Below, one piece after another: positions 28,183 to 41,907 of a DNA stretch of 46,351 nt. The stretch's first letter is position 1. Each line of letters starts with the position of its first letter. The notes beneath the pieces are model-generated. The model was given only the letters and a program-made list of their open reading frames with translations. It searched no databases and was not told the DNA's origin. Source of the DNA: Lachnospiraceae bacterium A4 (lineage in GTDB: Bacteria > Bacillota > Clostridia > Lachnospirales > Lachnospiraceae); assembly GCA_000403215.2 (NCBI GenBank), contig KE159549.1:414797-461147 (forward strand), given 5' to 3'. A program made the position numbers and the translations under genes.

Positions 28183-28370
28183 TTAATCTAATGCATACTC
28201 CTTGGCAACTCCCACAAATCCCATAAATAGAGGGTGGGGATGATTGGGGGACTCTTAAATTCAGGATGATACTGTACCCTACATAAAAAGGGCGGTCTCC
28301 CAGTTCAACCGTCTCTCCCAGTCTGCCGTCTGGAGAGGCTCGAGATAATCCACCATGGAAGGCAATGACG
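28183..28370 (-). pseudogene. pyrG: CTP synthase (pyrG) C-terminal remnant with frameshift
   Basis: Only the last 60 or so residues of a CTP synthase glutaminase domain can be read. One frame gives SRASPDGRLGETVELGDRPF and the next gives QYHPEFKSP, then a further shift to HPHPLFMGFVGVAKEYALD before TAA at 28183-28185. These match the conserved S-P-D-G-x-L-V-E, F-H-P-E-F-K and P-H-P-L-F-x-G-F-V motifs of PyrG. The rest of the gene is missing, replaced upstream by AT-rich sequence. It is a dead remnant just upstream of purF on the same strand. Confidence 0.75.
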
Positions 28371-28424
28371 CCCTTGTTCTATTATATGCATGTTCTGCTT
28401 CACAAAAAATCTCATAACAAAAGA

Positions 28425-28460
28425 AAAGCGCCTTCGAGTATTTAACTCAAAGACGCCTTT
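28425..28460 (-). terminator. Hairpin terminator on the minus strand before the pyrG remnant
   Basis: On the minus strand AAAGGCGTCTTTGAGT (28445-28460) pairs with ACTCGAAGGCGCTTT (28425-28439) over a five-base loop, and is followed by a T-rich tail. It may be a leftover terminator or a leader attenuator of the lost pyrG gene. Confidence 0.5.
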
Positions 28461-28701
28461 GCCTTTTGACTCTACATTATAACCATTAAAGGTAATTTGT
28501 CAAGATGTTTCTCAAAAGTTACTTTGTCAAATGGGAAGAAAAACGATGGTAATATGATAAAGTATAAATGATAAAACGATAATATTTGCTTGGAAAAAAT
28601 TAGGAATGCTGGAGGGAAAATTATGAGATTTCACCTATGAATGGGGTATCTGAACTGTTACCAGTTTATTCAAAAAAGTATTCAAAAATAAAATTTTCTT
28701 G

Positions 28702-28730
28702 TTGACAAATATTGTATCATAGTATACAAT
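28702..28730 (+). promoter_or_regulatory. Strong promoter with operator-like inverted repeat for the 11-gene operon
   Basis: TTGACA (28702-28707) and TACAAT (28725-28730) are 17 bp apart. ATTGTAT-N6-ATACAAT (28711-28730), a perfect 7-6-7 inverted repeat, covers the spacer and -10 box, a good position for a repressor. GntR-type operators can have similar TTGTAT arms, but the regulator is not in view. Confidence 0.75.
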
Positions 28731-28761
28731 CTCAACCATATAACATAAAAGCAATTTTTTA

Positions 28762-28799
28762 AACGAGCAATGGGGCTGATTACCAGGCTCGTTTTTTTT
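28762..28799 (+). terminator. Intrinsic terminator in the operon leader (attenuator candidate)
   Basis: AACGAGC (28762-28768) pairs with GCTCGTT (28787-28793), with CTG/CAG inside, followed by a run of T to 28799. It lies about 25 bp after the expected start of transcription and before the first gene, so most transcripts would stop unless it is bypassed. No known riboswitch is recognised in the short leader. Confidence 0.7.
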
Positions 28800-28847
28800 G
28801 TGTATATGAAAGGCGATTAAGGAGTTCATAACAGGAGGGCAAAAGCA

Positions 28848-29576
28848 ATGGCAATGATCAAGTTGGAACATGTTAATAAATATTTTGGAGATTTACATGT
28901 ACTAAAAGATATAAATCTTGAGGTGGCAGAGGGAGAAAAACTGGTCATTATTGGTCCTTCTGGTTCTGGCAAATCCACCACAGTACGTTGCATGAACTTT
29001 CTGGAGGAACCCTCCAGCGGCAAAGTCTATTTGGACGGTAAGGAACTGAACCATAAGAATAAGGTGCACTTGATCCGGGAGACTACCTCCATGGTATTCC
29101 AACAGTTTAACCTGTATCCTCATATGACGGTGCTGCGGAATCTGACATTGGCCCCTACAAAGCTATACCATAAGAGTAAGACGGAGGCGGAGAAACTGGC
29201 CTACCATTATCTGGATGTAGTAGGGCTGCGTGATAAGGCTCATGTATACCCTACAACACTGTCCGGCGGACAACAGCAGCGTATTGCTATTGCCAGAGCG
29301 TTATGTGCCCAGACCAAGATCATCCTGTTTGATGAGCCTACCTCGGCACTGGATCCAGAAACGATCCAAGAGGTGTTGGATGTGATGATCCGACTGGCTA
29401 AAGAAAATATAACCATGGTAGTGGTTACACATGAGATGGGATTTGCCCGTCAGGTAGCAGACCGAATTGTATTTATGGCGGATGGACAGATTGTGGAGGA
29501 AGGAACTCCGGAGCATTTCTTTGAAAATCCAGAGAATGAGCGTGTGAAACAGTTTTTAGGGAAAATTATCCGGTAA
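28848..29576 (+). CDS. Polar amino acid ABC transporter ATP-binding protein
   Basis: The 242-residue ATPase of the GlnQ/HisP family has Walker A GPSGSGKST, signature LSGGQQQR, Walker B IILFDEPTSALD and the H-loop VVTHEMGFAR. Its length is typical (about 240). AGGAGGG (28831-28837) precedes the ATG. It powers import of an amino acid, likely glutamine, glutamate or a related polar compound. It is the first gene of a plus-strand run of eleven genes to 38263. Confidence 0.9.
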   Translation: MAMIKLEHVNKYFGDLHVLKDINLEVAEGEKLVIIGPSGSGKSTTVRCMNFLEEPSSGKVYLDGKELNHKNKVHLIRETTSMVFQQFNLYPHMTVLRNLTLAPTKLYHKSKTEAEKLAYHYLDVVGLRDKAHVYPTTLSGGQQQRIAIARALCAQTKIILFDEPTSALDPETIQEVLDVMIRLAKENITMVVVTHEMGFARQVADRIVFMADGQIVEEGTPEHFFENPENERVKQFLGKIIR

Positions 29577-29654
29577 ATATTTTATTTGCTTGAAACATCG
29601 CAGCAGTGTTTATACATGGAGTATATCCTTCTGCCGCATGTTTTCAGATATATT

Positions 29655-29687
29655 CCGACATATGGGTGTTCTGCTTACATATGTCGG
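29655..29687 (+). other. Intergenic mRNA hairpin between transporter ATPase and binding-protein genes
   Basis: CCGACATATG (29655-29664) and CATATGTCGG (29678-29687) form a perfect 10-bp stem with a 13-base loop and no T-run after it. Such hairpins inside operons can stabilise the mRNA or raise the level of the binding-protein segment. Confidence 0.55.
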
Positions 29688-29724
29688 GCATTACCAAATA
29701 AGCAGGCAGAAAAGAGGAGATGTT

Positions 29725-30624
29725 ATGAAAAAGAAACTGGCGTTACTATTGGCATGTTTGATGGCTGTGACCATGTTGGCAGGTTGCGGTAAGGAGCAGG
29801 AATCTACAGCAGGCATGGGAACCTCTGAAAAGAGCAACAATGTGGAATCTGCAGAAGGACCAACGGGTTCTTTTGGAGTAGATACCCAGGCTATAATTGA
29901 CAGAGGCGTACTGCGGGTAGGGGTGAAAAATGCAGTGCCCGGATTTGGACTCCAGGATACTCTGACAGGGGAGTACTCTGGCATGGAAATTGATATTGCA
30001 ACAAAGCTGGCAGAATACCTGGGTGTGGAAGTGGAGTTTACCACTGTGACGGCAGCAACCCGTACCGAATTGCTGGATTCCGGGGATATTGATTGTGTGC
30101 TTGCCACCTTTACTATCACGGATGAAAGAAAGGAAAGCTGGGATTTTTCCACACCTTACTATACGGATGCAGTGACTGTGTTGGTGGAGAATGCATCCGG
30201 TATAACCTCCCTTGAAGGACTCGTGGACAAGAAAGTAGGTGTTTCTTCCGGATCTACATCTGCAAGGGCGCTGACGGCAGCCATGGTGGAAGCCGGTCTG
30301 ATTGATGGAACTGGATTTGAACCGGATACTTTTGACCCGGCAATTTGGACCACTGGCATTTCTTATCAGCAATATGAGGATTATCCGGCAATCTCCACGG
30401 CATTGAGCGCGGGAGAAGTGGATGCGTTCTGTGTTGATAAGTCTATTCTGGCGATATACAAGACAGAGGACCGTTCCTATATTGAAGAGAAGTTTTCTCC
30501 TCAGGAATATGGTATTGCCACCAAAAAAGGTTCTGACTTTTCCGTGCTGTGTGATGAATTGGTGAATACCTGGTTGAACGATGGCACCATAAGCAGTTTT
30601 ATGGATAACTATGGTCTTGAATAG
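29725..30624 (+). CDS. Amino acid ABC transporter substrate-binding lipoprotein (family 3)
   Basis: The start at 29725 follows AGAGGAG; the longer frame from 29590 crosses the upstream hairpin and lacks a signal peptide. The signal sequence ends in LAGC with lipidated Cys near residue 21. The body shows family 3 solute-binding motifs: GVLRVGVK, GLQDTLTGEYSGMEIDIA, and CVLATFTITDERKESWDFSTPYY. Length is about 299 residues. It binds a polar amino acid outside the membrane and gives it to the two permeases that follow. The exact ligand cannot be read from the sequence. Confidence 0.9.
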   Translation: MKKKLALLLACLMAVTMLAGCGKEQESTAGMGTSEKSNNVESAEGPTGSFGVDTQAIIDRGVLRVGVKNAVPGFGLQDTLTGEYSGMEIDIATKLAEYLGVEVEFTTVTAATRTELLDSGDIDCVLATFTITDERKESWDFSTPYYTDAVTVLVENASGITSLEGLVDKKVGVSSGSTSARALTAAMVEAGLIDGTGFEPDTFDPAIWTTGISYQQYEDYPAISTALSAGEVDAFCVDKSILAIYKTEDRSYIEEKFSPQEYGIATKKGSDFSVLCDELVNTWLNDGTISSFMDNYGLE

Positions 30625-30690
30625 AGTTGATGTGAACTTCCGGAAGTGCCCCGCCTGATGGCGGGACACCTGGAAGGGAAAGGAAATGGT

Positions 30691-31398
30691 ATGGCAGTTT
30701 TTTTTTCGGTAGATGCATGGCAAAAGGTATGGGTTTTTCGCAGTACTTTTCTGCATGGATTGGGAAATACGGTAAAAACATCGGTTTTTGCACTGCTCAT
30801 TGCATTGTTTTTGGGGATTGTCGTAGGTTTGATGGCAACCAGTGGGAAAAAGGTACTGACTGTTCTGGCTAGGGTTTATGTGGAGTTTATTCAGAATACG
30901 CCGGTATTGCTGCAAATGTGTTTTTTATATTATGCGCTGGCTTTTTCTGGACACAGCATTGGTATTGTTCCCACGGGTATTCTGGCGCTGGGCATTTATA
31001 CAGGGGCCTATATGGCGGAAGTAATCAGGGCCGGTATAGAGTCTGTTCCCAGAGGGCAGTTTGAGGCGGCTCAGGCTCAGGGATTTGGATATATCCAACG
31101 GATGTACTATATCATCTTTCCCCAGAGTATCAAAATTATTCTGCCACCTATGGTCAATCAGGTTGTGAACCTAATCAAGAATACCTCCTGCCTATACATT
31201 GTGGGAGGTACAGATTTGATTTCAGTGACATATAACTTTGTGACAGGGGTTAATACAGGCGGAGCGTATGCTCCTGCTTATCTTATAAGCGGAGTGCTGT
31301 TTTTCATTGTGTGCTTTCCACTGTCCACACTGGCCAGCACATGGGAGAATTCCCTGAAAAAACGGGATGCCAAGGTGAATGTGGCAACGAAAGTTTAA
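30691..31398 (+). CDS. Amino acid ABC transporter permease 1
   Basis: The start is taken at 30691 (MAVFFSVDAW) with AAAGGA before it; the frame opens at 30646. About 235 residues hold the HisM/GlnP-type permease pattern: FIQNTPVLLQMCFLYY after the first helices, and the EAA loop ARGRSVPRGQFEAAQAQGFG-like stretch (seen here as ESVPRGQFEAAQAQGFG). Five or so membrane segments are expected. It pairs with the next permease to form the channel. Confidence 0.9.
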   Translation: MAVFFSVDAWQKVWVFRSTFLHGLGNTVKTSVFALLIALFLGIVVGLMATSGKKVLTVLARVYVEFIQNTPVLLQMCFLYYALAFSGHSIGIVPTGILALGIYTGAYMAEVIRAGIESVPRGQFEAAQAQGFGYIQRMYYIIFPQSIKIILPPMVNQVVNLIKNTSCLYIVGGTDLISVTYNFVTGVNTGGAYAPAYLISGVLFFIVCFPLSTLASTWENSLKKRDAKVNVATKV

Positions 31399-31408
31399 GG
31401 ACGGAGAA

Positions 31409-32182
31409 ATGAAAATGAGAGAATTAGAGGGAAGCCTGAAAATTATATCAAACGCGGGTGTGTTGCAATATATTTGTAAGGGCATTGCATTTACATTGGT
31501 TATTGCGGTGACTGCGGTGGTATTAGGGATAATGATAGGGTCTATATTGGCGTTAGCCAGAAATTACTGCAATGGGAAGATAAGCCGGATTTTCAAATGG
31601 TTGGCGATTGCCTACATAGAAGTATTTCGGAATACACCGTTGCTATTATGGATTTTTGTCTGCGTGGTGTTCTGTCCTTGCCCGAAGTTTCTAAATCATA
31701 AAATGTTCGGAATTTCCACAGTGGAGGTACGGATGTTGTTCAAGGCTGCGGTGGCATTGGTTCTGTTTACCTCATCAGTCCTTGCAGAGATCATCCGGGG
31801 CGGGTTGAATTCTGTGGCTCAAGGACAATTTGAAGCAGGTCAGTCTCAGGGTTTTCATATGGTGCAGATTATGCTGTACATCGTGTTGCCTCAGGCATAC
31901 AGAAACATAGTGCCTACATTGCTGAGTCAAGTGGTGACCACAGTGAAAGATTCTTCCTATCTGGCTAACGTGGCGGTCATTGAGTTAATGGCCAGGGTGA
32001 GGCAGATTATGAATGGCGCCTATCAATACAATGGGCTCGGCACTACCAATGTTTCGGATGTCTTTGTGCTGTTCGGCTTTGCCGCATTAATTTATTTTGT
32101 CATAAATTTTACACTGTCCTGCATTGTGCGTTCCCTGCAGAAACGGCATAAGCGCCCTGCAGTGCAGTTAACCAGAGCATAG
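31409..32182 (+). CDS. Amino acid ABC transporter permease 2
   Basis: A second permease of the same family, about 257 residues, starts at 31409 or 31415, with GGACGGAG just before. It shows the first-loop motif YIEVFRNTPLLLWIF and the EAA loop NSVAQGQFEAGQSQGFH. It follows permease 1 by ten bases, so the two are co-translated. Together with the ATPase and lipoprotein they make a complete importer. The tail is basic, which fits an inside C-terminus. Confidence 0.9.
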   Translation: MKMRELEGSLKIISNAGVLQYICKGIAFTLVIAVTAVVLGIMIGSILALARNYCNGKISRIFKWLAIAYIEVFRNTPLLLWIFVCVVFCPCPKFLNHKMFGISTVEVRMLFKAAVALVLFTSSVLAEIIRGGLNSVAQGQFEAGQSQGFHMVQIMLYIVLPQAYRNIVPTLLSQVVTTVKDSSYLANVAVIELMARVRQIMNGAYQYNGLGTTNVSDVFVLFGFAALIYFVINFTLSCIVRSLQKRHKRPAVQLTRA

Positions 32183-32201
32183 AGCGAGGGGTGAGCGAAT
32201 A

Positions 32202-32801
32202 ATGGAAAAATATGTAATTACCATATCCAGACAGTTTGCCAGCATGGGACGATGTATTGCGCAGAGTCTGTCTGAGGAACTGGGAATTCCCTTTTATGAT
32301 AGGGATATTGTGGAGCAGACAGCCAAACGTATGGAATTACCCATATCCACAATCAGCCAGGAAGAAGAGAATGTCCGCTCTGTTTATTTCAAGCGGCAAT
32401 ATCCTCTGGGCATGGGGATACAGAGCATGCAGGATGAAATCTATATGGTTCAACAGAACATTATTCGTGATCTGGCGGAAAGGGAATCCTGTATTTTTGT
32501 GGGAAGGTGCAGTGACAGTATTCTGGCCGACCATCCCCGCCGCCTTAGTGTTTTTATTTATGCCCCTTACAGGGTGCGCTATGAAAACTGTATTAAGCGG
32601 CTGGGCATGATGCCGTCTGTCGCGGAGAAGATGATAAAGAATGTGGATAAATCCCGAATACAATATCACCGGCGCTATTGTAAGGGCTATCAGGATGAAC
32701 TCACAGGCAAGGATTTGGCCATTGACAGTGGCAGATTCGGAATTGAGGGCGCGGCACAGATCATAAAATCTGTCATGTGGGCAAAGGGTATAATAGGATG
32801 A
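32202..32801 (+). CDS. Cytidylate kinase-like protein
   Basis: This 199-residue protein belongs to the cytidylate kinase-like P-loop family (MEKYVITISRQFASMGRCIA at the start). In true kinases and most relatives the P-loop reads G-S-G-G or G-x-G-x-G-K-S/T; here it reads SRQFASMGRCIA, so the glycine-rich loop is altered. Later parts (IFVGRCSDSIL, then a lid-like basic stretch with RIQYHRRYCKGY) match the family. It lies between the importer and the ATP-grasp gene, with 46 bases to the next start. Its substrate is unknown and it may not be a CMP kinase. Confidence 0.8.
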   Translation: MEKYVITISRQFASMGRCIAQSLSEELGIPFYDRDIVEQTAKRMELPISTISQEEENVRSVYFKRQYPLGMGIQSMQDEIYMVQQNIIRDLAERESCIFVGRCSDSILADHPRRLSVFIYAPYRVRYENCIKRLGMMPSVAEKMIKNVDKSRIQYHRRYCKGYQDELTGKDLAIDSGRFGIEGAAQIIKSVMWAKGIIG

Positions 32802-32847
32802 TAGGAGTATTGTGGACATCCAGAAAGTATTTAGAGGAGGAATGGGC

Positions 32848-34167
32848 ATGCAGCAAATAGAGTTATTAAAACACACAGATAAAATTAATGAACTGTTGGC
32901 GCGTTATGGAGTGAAATTTGGTATTTATAAGAATAATGTATTCAAAGAACAGCTGTTTCCTTTTGACTCTATACCAAGAATTATTGAACATGATGAATTC
33001 ATTTTTTTGGAAAAGGGACTGAAACAGCGTGTTATGGCTTTGAATTTATTTTTAAAAGATATTTATGGCAAGAAACAGATCGTGAAAGATGGAATTATTC
33101 CGGACGATTTCATTTATGCCTCCAGCGGATATATGGCGGAATGTGAAGGAGCAGTTCCTCCAAAGGGGATTTATTCCCACATATCCGGAATTGACTTGGT
33201 AAAAGGAAAGGATGAGAACTGGTACATACTGGAGGACAATTTAAGAGTGCCTTCCGGAGCATCGTATCCTATGATTGCTAGGGATTTATGTAGGAGGAGT
33301 TCTCCGGATACATTTCACAGTTACAGACTGGAGGACAACCGGAATTATGCGGATTTACTGCGGAGAGCAATGGATTATGTGAACCCCGGAGGACATACGG
33401 TAATTCTGACGCCGGGAAGGTATAATGCCGCTTATTTTGAACATTCCTATCTGGCAGAAAAGACGGGAGCACATCTTGTAACCGGAGCAGAGCTGATGGT
33501 TGAAAAGGATGTATTGTATTACATTGCTTCTGACGGAACCAAGGAAAGGGTGGGAGCCGTATATCGCAGAATATCAGATGAGTATCTGGATCCGATGAAT
33601 TTTAATCCGGAATCCCTGATTGGCATCCCGCATATTTATGAGGTGTTCCGAAAGGGAAATGTGGCGCTGCTCAATGCGCCGGGAAACGGCGTAGCGGACG
33701 ATAAAGGAATTTACTATTTTGTTCCTAAAATGATTCGTTATTATTTGGATGAGGAACCGGTTCTTGGTAATGCACCGACATATCTACCATTTTATGAGGA
33801 AGATATGAAGTATGTTCTGGAACATTTTGATAAGCTGGTATTAAAGGATGTAGCAGAAGCAGGAGGGTATGGTGTTGTATTCGGAAGTTCTATGACAAAG
33901 CAGCAGAAACAGGATTTTATAGCCTTGTTAAAGAGGGAGCCAAGGAGGTTCATCGCACAGGAAGTAATTGACTTTCAGGATCTGGATATTGTGGATAATG
34001 GTGAGATTGTACCAAGAAAGGCAGACCTCAGGGCATTTGTGCTGATGGCAGAGGAACCCATGGTCTGGAAGAGCGGACTGACAAGGTTTTCCAGAAATAA
34101 AGATTCGTTTATTGTGAATTCATCACAGGGAGGAGGTTTTAAAGACACATGGGTATTATATCAGTAG
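32848..34167 (+). CDS. Circularly permuted ATP-grasp type 2 protein (DUF404/DUF407)
   Basis: The start at 32848 follows GAGGAGGA by seven bases; a longer frame from 32812 is less likely. The 439-residue protein belongs to the circularly permuted ATP-grasp family (COG2308). Visible stretches include KGIYSHISGIDLVKGKDENW followed by YILEDNLRVPSGASYPM, AVYRRISDEYLDP, NAPGNGVADDKGIYYFVP and VLKDVAEAGGYGVVFG. ATP-grasp enzymes join a carboxylate to an amine using ATP. The family usually travels with alpha-E and transglutaminase-like genes, as it does here. It probably makes an amide or peptide bond on an unknown substrate. Confidence 0.88.
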   Translation: MQQIELLKHTDKINELLARYGVKFGIYKNNVFKEQLFPFDSIPRIIEHDEFIFLEKGLKQRVMALNLFLKDIYGKKQIVKDGIIPDDFIYASSGYMAECEGAVPPKGIYSHISGIDLVKGKDENWYILEDNLRVPSGASYPMIARDLCRRSSPDTFHSYRLEDNRNYADLLRRAMDYVNPGGHTVILTPGRYNAAYFEHSYLAEKTGAHLVTGAELMVEKDVLYYIASDGTKERVGAVYRRISDEYLDPMNFNPESLIGIPHIYEVFRKGNVALLNAPGNGVADDKGIYYFVPKMIRYYLDEEPVLGNAPTYLPFYEEDMKYVLEHFDKLVLKDVAEAGGYGVVFGSSMTKQQKQDFIALLKREPRRFIAQEVIDFQDLDIVDNGEIVPRKADLRAFVLMAEEPMVWKSGLTRFSRNKDSFIVNSSQGGGFKDTWVLYQ

Positions 34168-34811
34168 AACAGGCAGATCGTTTATATTGGTTGGGAAGAT
34201 ACACAGAGCGTGTGTATACAACACTTCGTTTCTATTTTCCGAGATTTGACAACATGATTGACGAGGTGGTTGACAGTTATCAGGCATTCTGTGAATCCAT
34301 TGATATTCCGAACATTTATTCATCAAAGGAGGATTTTCTCAGGCGTTATCCTTTTGATGCAGATAATCCGGATTCTATCATCAGTAATCTTAATCGGGCA
34401 TATGACAATGCCATTGTACTCAGGGAGAGCATCGGTTCGGAAGCATTTTCTTATATTCAGCTTGCTGTCTATGATATGAATAAGGCAGCGATGAGCAAGT
34501 CGCCGTTAATAGAACTGCAGTATCTTATAGATCATATTTTATCATTTTGGGGGATTGCAGATGACCAGATTGATTCTGAACAGGTGCGGAACATGATCAA
34601 GGCAGGAAAACGGATTGAGCGTATTGATATGTTTGCGCGGCTTAAGGTGTCACAAAAGGAACTGATAAGAGAGGTACACCGCATGATCCCGAGAGTGGAA
34701 AGAAGCGGGCTGCAGTTTGATAAAGCGAGGCTGGAACAGATGAAAATCCTTGTGGAAAGTCCTGATTTGGATTACTATAAAATTGTATCAAATGTTGAGG
34801 CAATTTTATAG
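34149..34811 (+). CDS. Alpha-E domain protein (DUF403)
   Basis: The 220-residue all-helical protein starts with MGIISVEQADRLYWLGRYTE, the hallmark of the alpha-E family (COG2307). Its ATG overlaps the ATP-grasp gene by 19 bases, with GGGAGGAGG inside that gene as ribosome site. Alpha-E proteins are nearly always encoded with the permuted ATP-grasp and a transglutaminase-like protein, and are thought to be a partner in the same reaction. The biochemical role is unknown. The length is shorter than many family members (about 300), which may mean a compact form. Confidence 0.85.
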   Translation: MGIISVEQADRLYWLGRYTERVYTTLRFYFPRFDNMIDEVVDSYQAFCESIDIPNIYSSKEDFLRRYPFDADNPDSIISNLNRAYDNAIVLRESIGSEAFSYIQLAVYDMNKAAMSKSPLIELQYLIDHILSFWGIADDQIDSEQVRNMIKAGKRIERIDMFARLKVSQKELIREVHRMIPRVERSGLQFDKARLEQMKILVESPDLDYYKIVSNVEAIL

Positions 34812-34837
34812 TAATATGGCAGGTTGGGAGTGATTTT

Positions 34838-35632
34838 GTGTCAGTACTGCACTTTGAGTATAAGATGGAGATAAACTATGAGGAATATATCAGCCGATGT
34901 TTTTTTACGATCAAGTGTATCCCGAGGGAGGATGCAAGGCAGCATTTGCTGGGAATAGAACTTTCCGTATTGCCTGAGACTGAGTATTCCATGGGAGAGG
35001 ACTCATTTGGAAACAGGCAGATATATGGTTCTGAGACAGAGCCTCATAATCAGTTTCTATTTCAGTCAATCGGTGATGTAGAGATTATTCAGACAGATTA
35101 TGAGGAGATCAGTGATGAGACGGCAGGAATTTTCAGGATTCCTCATGGCAAATGTATACCAGGGTCTAGGCTTTCGGAATATTATCAATCTCATGATTTT
35201 TCAAAATGTAAGAGCCCTTATGAAATCTGTATGGCATGGATGCACAAGTTGCATCGGGATTTTTCATATGTGCCGGGAGCTACACAGTTTCATACCGGAG
35301 CGGAAGAAGCATGGGGCATGGGAAGAGGAGTCTGCCAGGATTATGCGCATATTTATGTTACATTGCTTCGCATGGCAGGGATTCCCGCTCGCTATGTATG
35401 CGGAATGATCATCGGCGAAGGCGCAAGCCATGCGTGGGCAGAGGCACTTTGCGGTGACAAGTGGGTGGCATTTGACCCTACGAATGATTGTCTGGTATCA
35501 GACCAGCATATAAAGATTGGCCATGGCAGAGATGCAGCAGACTGTGCAATTAACCGTGGGCTTATATGGAATAATGGAGTGCAGCTGCAAAAGATAGCTG
35601 TTCTGGTGGAAAAAAGAGAAAAGGATGGATAA
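34838..35632 (+). CDS. Transglutaminase-like cysteine protein
   Basis: The 264-residue protein belongs to the transglutaminase-like/COG1305 family. The GTG at 34838 is taken as start, after TTGGGAG. The catalytic triad is complete: Cys166 in GVCQDYAH, His198 in SHAWAE, Asp213 in FDPTND. The N-terminal half is the beta-rich region common to this COG. No signal peptide is seen, so it works in the cytoplasm. Such enzymes can act as peptidases or amidases or transfer acyl groups. It completes the ATP-grasp/alpha-E/transglutaminase trio. Its stop is one base from the next start. Confidence 0.88.
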   Translation: MSVLHFEYKMEINYEEYISRCFFTIKCIPREDARQHLLGIELSVLPETEYSMGEDSFGNRQIYGSETEPHNQFLFQSIGDVEIIQTDYEEISDETAGIFRIPHGKCIPGSRLSEYYQSHDFSKCKSPYEICMAWMHKLHRDFSYVPGATQFHTGAEEAWGMGRGVCQDYAHIYVTLLRMAGIPARYVCGMIIGEGASHAWAEALCGDKWVAFDPTNDCLVSDQHIKIGHGRDAADCAINRGLIWNNGVQLQKIAVLVEKREKDG

Positions 35633-35633
35633 C

Positions 35634-36584
35634 ATGATAAAGACAATAGCAGCGGTGGGGTTGCCCGTGGATGAAGTGCTGGAAATAAAAAGAAACCGTA
35701 TTCTGCCGGAGACACCCATGGACAGTATGAAACGTATCAGTATTGTTACGGGCATTCATGGGGATGAACTGGAGGGACAGTATGTATGTTTTGAATTGCA
35801 GCGCCGCATAGAACAGAACAAAGAATGTCTTACCGGGATCGTTGATATTTATCCGGCAATGAATCCGCTGGGGATTGACTCAATTACCAGAGGAATCCCG
35901 GCTTTTGACCTGGATATGAACCGGTTGTTTCCCGGAGATATTGATGGTAGCATGCTGGAGTATGTGGTTGCCAGGATCATGGAGGATGTGGCGGGTTCCG
36001 ACTGCGTGTTGGATATCCATGCCAGCAATATTTATCTGACAGAAATACCGCAGATACGCATCAATGAGCTGCATCAGGATATTCTTGTGCCGATGGCGGA
36101 GGCCGCCAATGTTGATTTTATATGGATACATGGGGCCAGCACGGTGCTGGAATCTACCTTTGCATACAGTCTGAATCACATTGGAACGCCGGTGCTGGTA
36201 GTGGAAATGGGCGTGGGAATGCGAATCACGCGCACATATGGGGATCAGATGGTAGATGGGATTTTCCATTTGATGAAAAAGATGGGAATCTGGAATGGCG
36301 AGGTAAAATCGGTAAGAAAACCAATCATTTCGCGAAAACCGGAAGATGTCTGTTACTTAAATGCCAGTGTTGGCGGGGTATTCATTCCAAATGTGGAGCA
36401 TGGCACAAAACTGAAAAAAGATGAAATAATAGGGCAGATTGTGGATCCGCTATGCGGAAAGGTATTGGACGAGGTAAGGACGCCGGAAGACGGTATGTTG
36501 TTTACCATAAGGGATTATCCTGTTGTCGTTGAGGGGTCTCTCATGGGACGGCTGCTGAAAAAGGAAGTGTGTGGCTATGAATAA
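35634..36584 (+). CDS. AstE/AspA-type M14 zinc deacylase, intact active site
   Basis: The 316-residue protein is of the succinylglutamate desuccinylase/aspartoacylase family in the M14 carboxypeptidase clan. Zinc ligands are seen: His42 and Glu45 in TGIHGDELEG, His129 in LDIHASN. Glu191 in VVEMGVG is the catalytic base candidate. The C-terminal barrel-like region (about 225-316) is typical of the family. It likely removes an acyl or amino-acyl group from an amide bond. ATG 35634 has AAGGA eight bases before it; the transglutaminase gene ends one base before. Confidence 0.87.
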   Translation: MIKTIAAVGLPVDEVLEIKRNRILPETPMDSMKRISIVTGIHGDELEGQYVCFELQRRIEQNKECLTGIVDIYPAMNPLGIDSITRGIPAFDLDMNRLFPGDIDGSMLEYVVARIMEDVAGSDCVLDIHASNIYLTEIPQIRINELHQDILVPMAEAANVDFIWIHGASTVLESTFAYSLNHIGTPVLVVEMGVGMRITRTYGDQMVDGIFHLMKKMGIWNGEVKSVRKPIISRKPEDVCYLNASVGGVFIPNVEHGTKLKKDEIIGQIVDPLCGKVLDEVRTPEDGMLFTIRDYPVVVEGSLMGRLLKKEVCGYE

Positions 36585-37506
36585 AAGAATTATTTATGAA
36601 CTCAAGGGGATATATCGGGATACTTTTCGTGTGACTGGATATGAATTTGGAGCGGGAGAAAAATCAGTCTGTATCGTAGGTAGTTCAAGGGGGAATGAAG
36701 TACAGCAGATTTACTGCTGTTCCCAGCTGGTGAAGAAAATGAAACAATTGGAGGATGAGGGAAGGATTTCGGAAGGGCACAAAATTTTGATCATTCCTTC
36801 TATCAATCCATATTCTATGAACATACAGAAGAGGTTCTGGTCAACGGATAATACGGATATTAACAGGATGTTCCCGGGATATGATATGGGAGAAACTACC
36901 CAGAGAATTGCGGACGGCGTATTCAGGGAAATTTCAGAGTATCAGTTTGGAGTTCAGTTCACGTCTTTTTATATGCCGGGGGATTTTGTCCCGCATGTGC
37001 GGCTGATGGATGAGGGATTCAGTGATCCTGAAACAGCGAAACAGTTTGGTCTCCCTTATGTCATCATACGCAGAGTAAGACCATATGATACGGCAACTTT
37101 GAACTATAACTGGCAGGTATGGAATACGCAGGCTTTTTCCCTGTATACTTCCACTACAGCTAGGCTCGACCGGAATAGTGCAGGCCAGGCGGTTCTGGCA
37201 GTAATGAATTTCATGTCCAAACAGGGAATGTTGAAATACAGTATACCTGACGGATTACATTCAAAAATCGTACATGATGAGGATATGATTTTGATAAAAA
37301 CGGCGAAATCCGGTATTTTTGAACCTATGGTAAAGGCAGGAGAGGAAGTAAGAACCGGACAACCTTTGGCAAATATTCTGAATCCGTATGAAGGCAATGT
37401 ACTTGAAACACTCTATGCACCTTTTGACAGGGTTGTGTTTTTTGTGCATAATGAACCGCTGACCTACGCTAATACGGCGGTAATAAAGTTGATAGAGAAA
37501 TATTGA
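36577..37506 (+). CDS. AstE/AspA-type M14 paralogue lacking zinc ligands
   Basis: The 309-residue protein is a diverged paralogue of the previous one, with the same overall order and a similar C-terminal region (GIFEPMVKAGEEVRTGQPLA). The zinc motif G-x-H-G-x-E is GSSRGNEV here: the His is Arg38, while Glu41 is kept. The second His site (D-I-H) reads QFTSFYM. It should not bind catalytic zinc in the normal way. ATG 36577 lies inside the previous gene's last codons, after AAGGAAG. It may form a heterodimer with, or regulate, the active paralogue. Confidence 0.85.
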   Translation: MNKRIIYELKGIYRDTFRVTGYEFGAGEKSVCIVGSSRGNEVQQIYCCSQLVKKMKQLEDEGRISEGHKILIIPSINPYSMNIQKRFWSTDNTDINRMFPGYDMGETTQRIADGVFREISEYQFGVQFTSFYMPGDFVPHVRLMDEGFSDPETAKQFGLPYVIIRRVRPYDTATLNYNWQVWNTQAFSLYTSTTARLDRNSAGQAVLAVMNFMSKQGMLKYSIPDGLHSKIVHDEDMILIKTAKSGIFEPMVKAGEEVRTGQPLANILNPYEGNVLETLYAPFDRVVFFVHNEPLTYANTAVIKLIEKY

Positions 37507-37552
37507 AACTGATGAAACCTGAGAACGAAAATGACTGTTTAGGAGGAGGGCT

Positions 37553-38263
37553 ATGAGAAAACCGATTATAGGGCTCATTCCGCTTGTGGATGTAGAAAGG
37601 GAGAGTTACTGGATGCACCCGGGATACATGAAGGGAGTAGAACAAGCTGGAGGGATTCCGGTTATGTTGCCATTAACCTCAGATGAAGAAGAATTGCAGG
37701 ATGTATCGAAGGAGATAGATGGATTTCTATTTACTGGCGGACAGGACATTTCTCCAAACCTATATGCACAGGATTATTCACCTATGTGTGGAAAATGTTG
37801 TAAAGAACGGGATGAAATGGAGGCAGTATTATTCCGTATGGTATATGAATTGGATAAACCGGTACTGGGAATATGCAGAGGAATACAGTATATTAACGTA
37901 GTAATGGGAGGAACATTATATCAGGATCTGCCGTCGGAGCATCCATCCAATATAGAACACCATCAGATGCCGCCATATGAAGTGCCAGTGCATTCGGTAA
38001 GAATATTAGAGGAAAGTCCATTATATAAAATATTGAAAAAAGAAAAAATAATGGTCAACAGTTATCATCACCAGGCAATCCGAATACTTGCCCCAAAACT
38101 ATCAGTCATGGCGATTTCACAGGATGATTTGGTTGAAGCAGTGTGTGTACCAGAAAAAAGATTTGTATGGGGGGTACAGTGGCATCCGGAGTTTTCTTAC
38201 TTAACGGATGAAGACAGCAGAAAAATTTTTTCGGAGTTTATAATAAAGGCAGCAGACAATTAA
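37553..38263 (+). CDS. Class I amidotransferase-type gamma-glutamyl hydrolase (peptidase C26)
   Basis: The 236-residue protein belongs to the gamma-glutamyl-GABA hydrolase/peptidase C26 family (PuuD-like). The triad is Cys108 in LGICRGIQ, His211 and Glu213 in QWHPEF. The oxyanion region reads FLFTGGQDISPNLY. Enzymes of this type cleave gamma-glutamyl amides, releasing glutamate. GGAGGAGGG lies before the ATG. It is the last gene of the run from 28848, 46 bases after the M14 paralogue, and suggests that a gamma-glutamyl or glutamine-like compound is processed. Confidence 0.9.
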   Translation: MRKPIIGLIPLVDVERESYWMHPGYMKGVEQAGGIPVMLPLTSDEEELQDVSKEIDGFLFTGGQDISPNLYAQDYSPMCGKCCKERDEMEAVLFRMVYELDKPVLGICRGIQYINVVMGGTLYQDLPSEHPSNIEHHQMPPYEVPVHSVRILEESPLYKILKKEKIMVNSYHHQAIRILAPKLSVMAISQDDLVEAVCVPEKRFVWGVQWHPEFSYLTDEDSRKIFSEFIIKAADN

Positions 38264-38291
38264 TAACGTGGATGTGAATATTCCGAAATAG

Positions 38292-38528
38292 GATGAACCG
38301 AAGAAAATACCACTTATGGGAGTGATGGGGGCATTTGTGTTTTCGGCGCAGATGATCAATTTTACAATTCCGGGAACTGGTGCCAGCGGTCATTTATGTG
38401 GAGGAATGTTGCTGACAGCTTTGTTGGGACCTTATGAAGCATTTTTAACAATGATTGGAGTGTTATTGATTCAATGTCTGATGTTTGCAGATGGTGGTTT
38501 TTTGGCATTAGGGTTATCCTATAAATAA
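38292..38528 (+). pseudogene. cbiM: CbiM internal fragment
   Basis: The frame after a TAG at 38289 reads DEPKKIPLMGVMGAFVFSAQ, then a stretch with IPGTGASGHLCGG and GPYEAFLTMIGV plus FADGGFLALG, all highly typical of CbiM, the substrate-binding membrane subunit of nickel/cobalt ECF importers. The N-terminal region with the metal-binding MHIADG start and the C-terminal two thirds are missing, as are CbiN and CbiQ. Only about 78 codons remain and the frame ends in TAA before cbiO. The fragment cannot transport metal. Confidence 0.75.
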
Positions 38529-38579
38529 CTTCAACAATTATGATGATGAATATAGGCTTATAAAAAAGAAGGGAAGTAT

Positions 38580-39389: not shown

Positions 39390-39449
39390 GTTTATATTGT
39401 GAAATGTGATAGACGAAGAGGTCTTTCCGAAAGGAGGGGTCTCTTTTTT
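39390..39449 (+). terminator. Urease leader with hairpin and intrinsic terminator (attenuator candidate)
   Basis: GTTTAT (39390-39395) can pair with ATAGAC to about 39414, and then AAGAG-GTCTTTCC, a GAAA tetraloop, and GGAGGGGT-CTCTT (39416-39445) form a strong stem followed by six T or so. The terminator lies about 50 bases after the start of transcription and before ureA. It would block most transcription unless bypassed by a regulator, nickel or urea signal. No known riboswitch class is recognised. Confidence 0.65.
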
Positions 39450-39487
39450 CGCATATGCACAAAATATCTTAAGAAAGGAAAAATATT

Positions 39488-40185: not shown

Positions 40186-41907
40186 ATGAGTAATAAAATT
40201 TCCAGAGAAAAATATGCAATGATGTATGGTCCAACTGTGGGCGATAAAGTGCGCTTGGCAGATACCAACCTTGTGATAGAGGTGGAAAAGGATTACACAA
40301 CCTATGGAGATGAAGTGAAATTTGGCGGTGGAAAGACTATCCGGGATGGTATGGGACAGTCTGTGAAAGCGTGCAGTAAAGACGGAGTGTTGGATCTGGT
40401 CATCACAAACTGTCTGATCCTTGATTATACTGGTATCATCAAAGCAGATATCGGTATCAAGGATGGTAAAATTGTTGGAATAGGAAAAGCGGGGAATCCA
40501 GATTTGATGGATGGTGTAACGCCTGGAATGACAATCGGTGCTTCAACGGAGGCTCTGGCGGGAGAAAATCTAATTGTGACTGCGGGCGGTATTGACAGCC
40601 ATATTCATTTTATTGCTCCACAGCAGATACCATGTTCCCTGTATTCAGGTGTAACCACAATGATTGGTGGTGGAACAGGACCGGCAGATGGCACAAATGC
40701 CACAACCTGTACACCGGGACCATGGAATATCCGGATGATGTTAAAAGCAGCGGAAGAATATCCAATGAATCTTGGATTCTATGGAAAAGGAAACTGTTCA
40801 GATGAAAAACCGCTTATTGAGCAGTTGGAGGCCGGTGCGATGGGAATGAAAATCCATGAAGATTTTGGATCCACTCCGGCAGCAATTAATCATTGTCTGA
40901 ATGTGGCTGACGAATATGATGTTCAGGTTGCTATCCATACAGATACGCTAAATGAGGCAGGCTGTGTGGAGGACACACTGGATGCCATTGGTGGACGTAC
41001 CATACATACATTCCATACCGAGGGCGCAGGTGGTGGACATGCACCGGATATAATTCGTGCAGCGGGTAGTCAGAATGTGTTGCCATCCTCTACAAATCCA
41101 ACTATGCCTTTTACCGTAAATACTATAGATGAGCATTTGGACATGCTGATGGTTTGCCATCATTTAGATAAAAATATCCCGGAAGATGTGGCTTTTGCAG
41201 ACTCCCGAATCCGTCCGGAGACAATTGCGGCGGAAGACGTATTGCATGACATGGGTGTATTTTCTATGATGAGTTCCGATTCTCAGGCAATGGGGCGTCC
41301 GGGCGAAGTGATTACCCGTACATGGCAGACAGCACATAAAATGAAAGAAGAACGTGGGCCATTGGGAGTGGATAAGGAAAATGGTAATGATAACTTCCGG
41401 GCAAAACGTTATGTTGCAAAATACACGATAAATCCGGCTATTACAAATGGTATTGCAGATTATGTTGGATCTGTTGAAGTAGGAAAATTTGCGGATTTAG
41501 TGCTTTGGAATCCGGCGTTTTTTGGCGCAAAGCCTGATATTATCATCAAAGGTGGCATGATTATTGCTTCCAAAATGGGTGATGCCAATGCATCAATTCC
41601 TACCACACAGCCAGTATTATATCAGCCAATGTTTGCGGCACATGGAGATGCAAAATATGAGAGTTGTCTGACATTTGTTTCCAAGGCTGCTATGGATCAG
41701 AACATAAAAGAAAAATATGGTTTGAAAAAGACGGTAGTGCCGGTATGTGGCTGCAGAAATATTGGTAAAAAAGATATGAAATTAAATGATGCAACACCTA
41801 AAATTACTGTAAATCCGGAGACGTATGAGGTATGTGCGGATGGTGTAAAACTGGAATCAAAGCCTGCAGAAACACTGCCTTTGACACAGCTTTACAGCTT
41901 ATTCTAA
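40186..41907 (+). CDS. ureC: Urease alpha subunit (catalytic)
   Basis: The 573-residue catalytic subunit has all active-site residues: His139 and His141 (HIHF), Lys222 for carbamylation (GMKIHED), His251 (AIHTDTLNE), His277 ([11 protein letters not shown]) and Asp365 (SSDSQAMGR). The flap with the conserved Cys-His pair is MVCHHLD. It hydrolyses urea to ammonia and carbamate with two Ni ions. AGAGGAGG lies ahead of the ATG. Length and motifs are normal. Confidence 0.97.

Follow-up and report, generated by a model that had tools for sequence, protein, structure and literature searches.

A five-gene ATP-grasp, alpha-E, transglutaminase-like and M14-pair cassette and its predicted hexaloop attenuator in Lachnospiraceae

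A conserved five-gene cassette within an eleven-gene run

We analysed a stretch of 46,351 nucleotides from contig KE159549.1 of Lachnospiraceae bacterium A4, here called the window, in which eleven co-directional genes run along the + strand at 28848-38263. A sequence-only reading had listed eleven same-strand genes with short gaps or overlaps and had named their families; all are present, with domain families as first named in a profile search of the window, intergenic gaps of 19 to 148 bases and four overlaps between neighbours. The eleven genes as one conserved unit, however, were rejected, since relatives show a five-gene core with optional modules. The conserved unit is five genes in fixed order, namely a circularly permuted ATP-grasp, an alpha-E protein and a transglutaminase-like enzyme (the trio), followed by two M14-family proteins, M14a and M14b; we refer to these five as the cassette.

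28848..29576, + strand: ATP-binding cassette (ABC) importer ATPase, amino-acid type (profile match)
29725..30624, + strand: solute-binding lipoprotein, solute-binding protein (SBP) family 3 (ATG at 29725)
30646..31398, + strand: importer permease 1 (profile match)
31379..32182, + strand: importer permease 2 (profile match)
32202..32801, + strand: cytidylate-kinase-like protein (Cytidylate_kin2), which accompanies the importer in relatives
32839..34167, + strand: circularly permuted ATP-grasp, core gene 1 (CP_ATPgrasp 447.6 bits; 3n6x E 4e-112)
34149..34811, + strand: alpha-E, short form, core gene 2 (Alpha-E 84.5 bits, positions 6-164 of 294)
34838..35632, + strand: transglutaminase-like Cys enzyme, core gene 3 (Transglut_core and Bact_transglu_N; C166/H198/D213)
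35625..36584, + strand: M14a, predicted AstE/AspA-type metallo-deacylase, core gene 4 (AstE_AspA_cat 87.5 bits; H45, E48, H132, E194)
36577..37506, + strand: M14b, predicted AstE/AspA-type pseudo-enzyme, core gene 5 (AstE_AspA_cat 38.6 bits; R40, T131, Y192)
37553..38263, + strand: Peptidase_C26, optional in relatives (222.5 bits)

Within the family, 59 of 397 genomes carry the ATP-grasp, a count that includes the genome studied here and fragments, and 40 neighbourhoods were taken from the 58 other ATP-grasp genomes. All five core genes are present in 30 of the 35 relatives in which 3.9 kb or more of sequence follows the ATP-grasp, and in three of the five with less contig room. The other five of the 35 are one in which the ATP-grasp is cut by the contig edge and the remaining four core genes are there (L044), one with the trio but no M14 genes (L047), one with the ATP-grasp and part of alpha-E only (L067), one with the ATP-grasp only (L073) and one in which the ATP-grasp, the transglutaminase-like gene and both M14 genes are broken or short, so that at least four of the five core genes are decaying together (L068). 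From the M14b side, a scan of named genomes confirmed 582 loci, of which the 80 best were kept, 16 of these being cut by contig ends; among the 64 loci that extend 4.5 kb or more upstream, 62 keep the five-gene order, and the remaining two hold ATP-grasp pieces with M14a-M14b and transglutaminase-M14a-M14b, respectively. The earlier proposal that the trio and the M14 pair form one system is thus upheld by 30/35 and 62/64 neighbourhoods. In the class, M14b was found in 15 of 391 genomes with M14a adjoining every time, and 13 of these loci were inspected, of which nine carry the trio, one ends at a contig edge and three have the pair alone. Across the phylum the ATP-grasp was present in 6 of 299 genomes, one of which, outside the class, has the whole cassette (G1016), and the core order was found across several families. 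No conserved sixth gene was found beyond the five core families among the neighbour clusters of 41 loci.

The core proteins are conserved together and in their critical positions. Locus distances were concordant among all five (Mantel r 0.64 to 0.93, 0/500 permutations, 96 distinct loci), which is expected under joint inheritance, although common descent alone would give it too. The ATP-grasp is the best conserved of the five (mean identity 78%) and keeps E132, D133, K289 and K336 in 96/96 loci, as the transglutaminase-like protein keeps its Cys/His/Asp; in a 34-row tree, the 28 ATP-grasps from cassette loci all fall into a single clade (100/100), which excludes the six from other trio loci. 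The alpha-E protein has a confident, all-helical predicted model (predicted local distance difference test, pLDDT, 92.6), for which a Foldseek search returned no solved relative (best E 0.8).

By contrast with the core, the importer, the kinase-like gene and C26 are recurrent yet optional. Among the 40 neighbourhoods, an orthologous importer and kinase-like gene precede the cassette in L035 and L051, and the importer without the kinase does so in L043; among the 80 named loci, the orthologous importer lies beside the cassette in ten (nine upstream, one downstream in L136), a different importer of the same family is joined to it in L050, L088, L094, L100 and L126, and C26 relatives lie near 11. 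Of 299 family genomes, 11 contain the SBP orthologue; the ATP-grasp is present in eight of these, with the two adjoining in four; in G142 the importer is followed by L-serine dehydratase genes. The association exceeds the background, with the ATP-grasp in 7 of 10 other importer genomes compared with 58 of 396 (hypergeometric 9e-5, own genome excluded), the two genome samples being overlapping rather than identical. Hence the link to uptake drawn in the sequence-only reading holds in that amino-acid importers join repeatedly, but the importer is optional, and under the refuting condition set in that reading the three importer genomes that lack the ATP-grasp make the eleven-gene system fail while leaving the five-gene one in place. 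The importer substrate could not be named from the SBP profile search, in which the best match, the Asp/Glu binder NF008885, scored 176.9 bits, under its cut-off of 373. For the C26 protein the best NCBIfam match is PuuD, a gamma-glutamyl-GABA (gamma-aminobutyrate) hydrolase, at 110.3 bits, under the equivalog cut-off of 266. A FUSC/ArAE-type membrane protein with a HAD domain also adjoins the cassette or the importer (16 cluster members; L175 11629-12936 and relatives).

The M14 pair and the relation to the Anbu operon

M14a keeps H45, E48, H132 and E194 in 32/32 loci, and in 95, 96, 95 and 95 of 96, respectively, in the larger set; in the M14 AstE/AspA family the His/Glu/His act as zinc ligands and the last Glu as the catalytic base. 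At the same H, E, H, E positions M14b has R, E, T/A/S and Y, with R40 in 34/34 and 95/96 loci and Y192 in 33 (plus F) of 34 and 94 (plus F) of 96, so that the zinc-ligand/catalytic residues are missing in 95/96 loci; the lone M14a and M14b exceptions mirror each other and are probably one swapped assignment. M14b nevertheless retains E43 (96/96), N98/R99 (96/96) as well as numerous invariant W, Y, T and R residues, and is therefore under selection. Judged by these residues, M14b is a dedicated, conserved pseudo-enzyme and only M14a looks like an active deacylase. Of the two AstE/AspA M14 deacylases proposed in the sequence-only reading, the family of both was right, but the second as an enzyme had to be rejected. 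The sequence matches of M14a (3cdx, 3na6, 2qj8 and DoeB) and its intact residues align it with known AstE/AspA M14 deacylases such as DoeB (6twm) and 3cdx, from which the cassette differs in its tandem predicted active/inactive pair. The M14b model (pLDDT 84.2, with a poor loop at 81-105) matches the folds of 3cdx, DoeB and CphZ; for CphZ, a cyanophycin-dipeptide hydrolase (8ein, 8eip), the likeness is this fold match of the M14b model only. The one-contig genome G560 (L178 3925-9242) has M14a-M14b but no trio at this locus; the pair is preceded by a PucR-type regulator and by a GABA transaminase that scores above its cut-off, and upstream there is another amino-acid importer, a gene setting that gives a hint at the substrate of the pair.

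The M14 pair occupies the slot that the Anbu peptidase holds in the classical operon, for which the four-gene order ATP-grasp/alpha-E/transglutaminase/Anbu is described as predominant (PMC6376114, cited, like the other papers here, from excerpts); in the same work, neither a peptidase activity of YbAnbu nor an interaction with its operon partners was found. Anbu was searched for with PF00227 in 64 cassette-gene genomes, comprising 52 of the 59 ATP-grasp genomes (seven with short fragments only were omitted) and 12 class M14b genomes. One exceeded the cut-off (G397), through a 184-aa frame on a different contig that we take to be HslV-sized, and six others gave sub-threshold matches. The control was positive in 10 of 14 genomes, and a known Anbu passes the cut-off narrowly (24.9 vs 22.4 bits), so that a divergent Anbu could escape this search. 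Among five trio loci outside the cassette, one (L193) has ATP-grasp, alpha-E, transglutaminase-like and Anbu genes, with Anbu as the next gene in an order matching the M14a-M14b slot; in the other four (L189, L190, L191, L192) the trio genes have no recognisable adjoining Anbu. The statement that COG2308, COG2307 and COG1305 proteins keep company with Anbu is accordingly true of L193 but not of the other four. Likewise, the suggestion that Anbu is replaced by deacylases and C26 agrees with the absence of a detected Anbu and with the M14 pair in its slot, but C26 as a replacement was rejected, being an accessory gene (11/80).

The cassette is a relative of the Anbu operon without the proteasome-like part. 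The two share the order of their first three genes, a hydrolase in the slot after the transglutaminase-like gene and, as reported in Pseudomonadota, nitrogen control; they differ in that the cassette has M14a with pseudo-M14b and no Anbu, a short alpha-E (220 aa vs 336 aa in L189), an ATP-grasp in its own clade and an attenuator instead of NtrC. No description of a cassette with M14 genes was found within the open-access literature, and an earlier mention elsewhere is possible.

A hexaloop attenuator shared with nitrogen genes

The attenuator shared by the cassette and nitrogen genes was missed in the first reading. Of 117 distinct leaders of ATP-grasp or importer genes, 75 contain the strict pattern RRC-AAAGGC-GYY together with a terminator. 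An alignment of 30 leaders shows the hexaloop stem paired in 90.8% of cells, with 21 double changes and a covariation of 0.501 (0.288 in shuffles, none of 500 reaching it); for the terminator, pairing is 98.3% and covariation 0.683 (0.286 in shuffles, again 0/500). The two hairpins use common bases and are mutually exclusive. A stricter rule applied to 2.28 Mb of neighbourhood DNA returned 68 elements, whereas two shuffled copies gave one; of the 68, 45 lie before the ATP-grasp, 15 before the importer, two before C26 and six elsewhere, including an amt and a citrate-synthase gene, and these counts favour the ATP-grasp and importer classes because the rule was derived from their leaders. Importers apart from the cassette also carry the element (L157, L158, L162, L163). 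A promoter with at least 9/12 positions was seen for 56 of the 68 elements, compared with 47 of 600 random stretches, and since the attenuator follows the -10 closely (median 14 nt) it forms right at the 5' end of the RNA.

In the genome studied here the attenuator precedes purF, an Amt-PII fusion gene and ureA. The strict pattern together with model R1 recovered purF, amt and one match inside an integrase-like frame, with the purF leader itself part of the R1 training set; because R1 scored 150 of 1929 own-genome candidates, this regulon list is incomplete. The leader features of the window are as follows.

28702..28730, + strand: promoter-like site TTGACA-17-TACAAT (11/12 positions)
28712..28729, + strand: operator-like palindrome TTGTAT-N6-ATACAA over the -10, which recurs in leaders of relatives
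about 28764..28801, + strand: atypical leader terminator/attenuator hairpin before the first importer gene, abcA (fold z -4.1; fails the hexaloop rule)
28418..28464, - strand: hexaloop attenuator in the leader of purF, a divergent neighbour (fold z -7.6)
39412..39453, + strand: hexaloop attenuator in the ureA leader of the downstream urease operon (looser rule met; unscored by model R1)

The loop fits the published rule for ANTAR targets (PMC3369931), and the leaders resemble those of EutV, NasR and AmiR described there in having a 4-bp stem with a hexaloop that overlaps an intrinsic terminator, with nitrogen genes downstream. G stands at loop position 4 in 30/30 aligned leaders, where the search pattern requires it, and A at position 1 in 26/30. 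The difference is that a single hairpin close behind the promoter is found here, and a classical two-hairpin ANTAR site was rejected, the first hairpin being at chance. An ANTAR protein was present in 27/27 genomes searched, cassette or not, and follows glnA in 6 of 7 genomes inspected, glnA being model-confirmed for L034 alone. Neither the window, at gathering level, nor a 501-base test stretch of L078 matched an Rfam family as an attenuator, the latter giving sub-threshold matches only (best P11, 23.9 bits vs gathering 70). The purF leader (about 28190-28464, - strand) has a second GGGCG...CGCCC terminator-like stretch after the first attenuator, possibly in tandem.

The promoter, operator-like repeat and attenuator that the sequence-only reading placed before abcA can all be seen, but promoter and terminator counts in the region, taken alone, are at chance (29 promoters found, 29.0 expected; 10 terminators found, 8.3 expected). 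A palindrome of this TTGTATACAA type lies near the promoter in 13 of 112 leaders of relatives, those of L040, L076, L077, L105, L120, L124 and L129 among them, compared with 2 of 480 random stretches; our guess is a GntR-like operator.

The operon has purF and carAB as divergent neighbours, and downstream of it lie a cobalt/nickel-type transporter remnant, an ABC ATPase and urease. The remnant (window 38280-38530) resembles, by eye, the start of a CbiM-like frame; because Eubacterium plexicaudatum ASF492 has longer CbiM-like and CbiQ-like frames between C26 and cbiO (L078 12008-13623), the transporter beside urease looks decayed in the window. An Rfam 5' ureB small RNA (sRNA) match (window 40339-40636, - strand; 95 bits, gathering 40) is antisense to the ureC start; the family is antisense by nature, so the match may only reflect the conserved ureC gene. 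The names given to the frames for glnA (L034 excepted), citrate synthase, isocitrate dehydrogenase and GOGAT and to the cbiM/cbiQ-like ones come from inspection of their sequences by eye.

A predicted nitrogen-responsive amide system

The family assignments predict the chemistry: an ATP-grasp ligase, a Cys-His-Asp enzyme and an M14 deacylase. In the reading that we favour, and to which we give about an even chance, the cassette is a nitrogen-responsive system that makes and cuts a small-molecule amide. The permuted ATP-grasp ligase would activate a carboxylate and join it to an amine, the transglutaminase-like enzyme would transfer or cut the amide in between, and M14a, probably in a heteromer with its inactive partner M14b, would remove the amino acid or acyl group again; we infer both that the two M14 proteins act together and that the amide formed by ligation is also the one hydrolysed. 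The leader would fold into either the hexaloop hairpin or the terminator and so attenuate expression, and because it is common to the importer, some C26 genes, purF, urease and the ammonium transporter, the cassette would be made when nitrogen is needed. In the window, an importer-plus-kinase module and a C26 hydrolase have become part of a single operon with the cassette.

Published data point the same way. In a Burkholderia cenocepacia ntrC mutant the ATP-grasp, alpha-E and two transglutaminase genes fall 8.2-, 9.4-, 9.4- and 6.0-fold, placing trio genes among the strongest NtrC-dependent ones, alongside urease, glnA and amino-acid importers (PMC5491218); in Pseudomonas putida the ATP-grasp (log2 3.99) and Anbu (log2 4.44) are both up on nitrate relative to ammonium (PMC8050072); Anbu rises under nitrogen limitation (PMC5666114); and in marine metagenomes the trio domains cluster with urea metabolism (PMC3597751). 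Together with the leader, the Pseudomonadota data support a nitrogen-responsive role in two phyla, which suggests that the job of the Anbu operon concerns nitrogen.

Several observations weigh against this reading. The M14 pair stands without the trio in G560, G655 and G321, so that the two halves are separable. The looser hexaloop rule was built from ATP-grasp and importer leaders; 26 of the 112 leaders fail it and 86 meet it, compared with 7 of 360 random stretches, which were mostly coding and hence an easy control. The upstream first hairpin, P1, was found for 4 of 68 elements, at the chance level of 2.9. In the window itself the abcA leader fails the rule, and no attenuator was seen directly before the ATP-grasp.

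Some of these points would also suit an attenuator that answers another signal, such as growth rate, nucleotides or an amino acid, with the nitrogen theme a coincidence: the element precedes purF and citrate synthase as well, no first ANTAR hairpin is present, and ANTAR proteins occur regardless of the cassette (27/27) and are hence uninformative. We consider this unlikely because amt-PII, ureA and the importer belong to the same set, the glnA neighbour is an ANTAR protein in 6 of the 7 genomes, and the trio is under nitrogen control in two Pseudomonadota (PMC5491218, PMC8050072, in excerpt). Peptide or protein tagging, in which the ATP-grasp and alpha-E would add amino acids that the transglutaminase-like enzyme and M14a/M14b trim off, is the hypothesis published for the trio in the excerpted work (PMC6376114, PMC5666114), and AstE/AspA-like trimming enzymes would fill the Anbu slot; however, neither a small conserved protein nor any other target gene was found among the neighbours shared by 41 loci, and regulation in common with purF, urease, amt and the importer suggests a part in supplying nitrogen from small molecules, which makes tagging improbable.

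Pure scavenging, in which external N-acyl or gamma-glutamyl amino acids would be taken up and hydrolysed and the ATP-grasp would have a side role (re-sealing or activation, for example), draws on the C26 hydrolase, on the GABA transaminase and PucR-type regulator before the trio-less M14 pair of L178 and on two importer types having joined independently (the orthologous one in 10/80 loci, the other in five). We doubt it, since the ATP-grasp is the best conserved protein with its residues intact, which is odd for a side role, and most cassette loci have no importer. A chance adjacency of eleven unrelated genes fits the separable importer, kinase and C26 and the variable core flanks, but is refuted for the core by the five-gene order in 62/64 named loci from several families, and we give it next to no credence.

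Within the nitrogen-responsive amide reading, a more specific possibility, offered tentatively and by analogy with cyanophycin, is that the trio and an obligate active/inactive M14 pair might store nitrogen in, and later recover it from, an undescribed reserve of isopeptide or N-acyl amino-acid type, with a one-hairpin nitrogen attenuator turning the system on and with the Pseudomonadota Anbu operon as the same system with another hydrolase. More generally, the cassette gives the ligase trio a second, independent partner set in another phylum with a predicted nitrogen link, which narrows the Anbu question: the common element must be a nitrogen-related amide from the ATP-grasp, and the hydrolase is exchangeable. 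Many gut Clostridia carry the cassette, usually behind a predicted RNA switch common to nitrogen-supply genes, and among its carriers is a cultured species of the gnotobiotic mouse, E. plexicaudatum ASF492 (L078).

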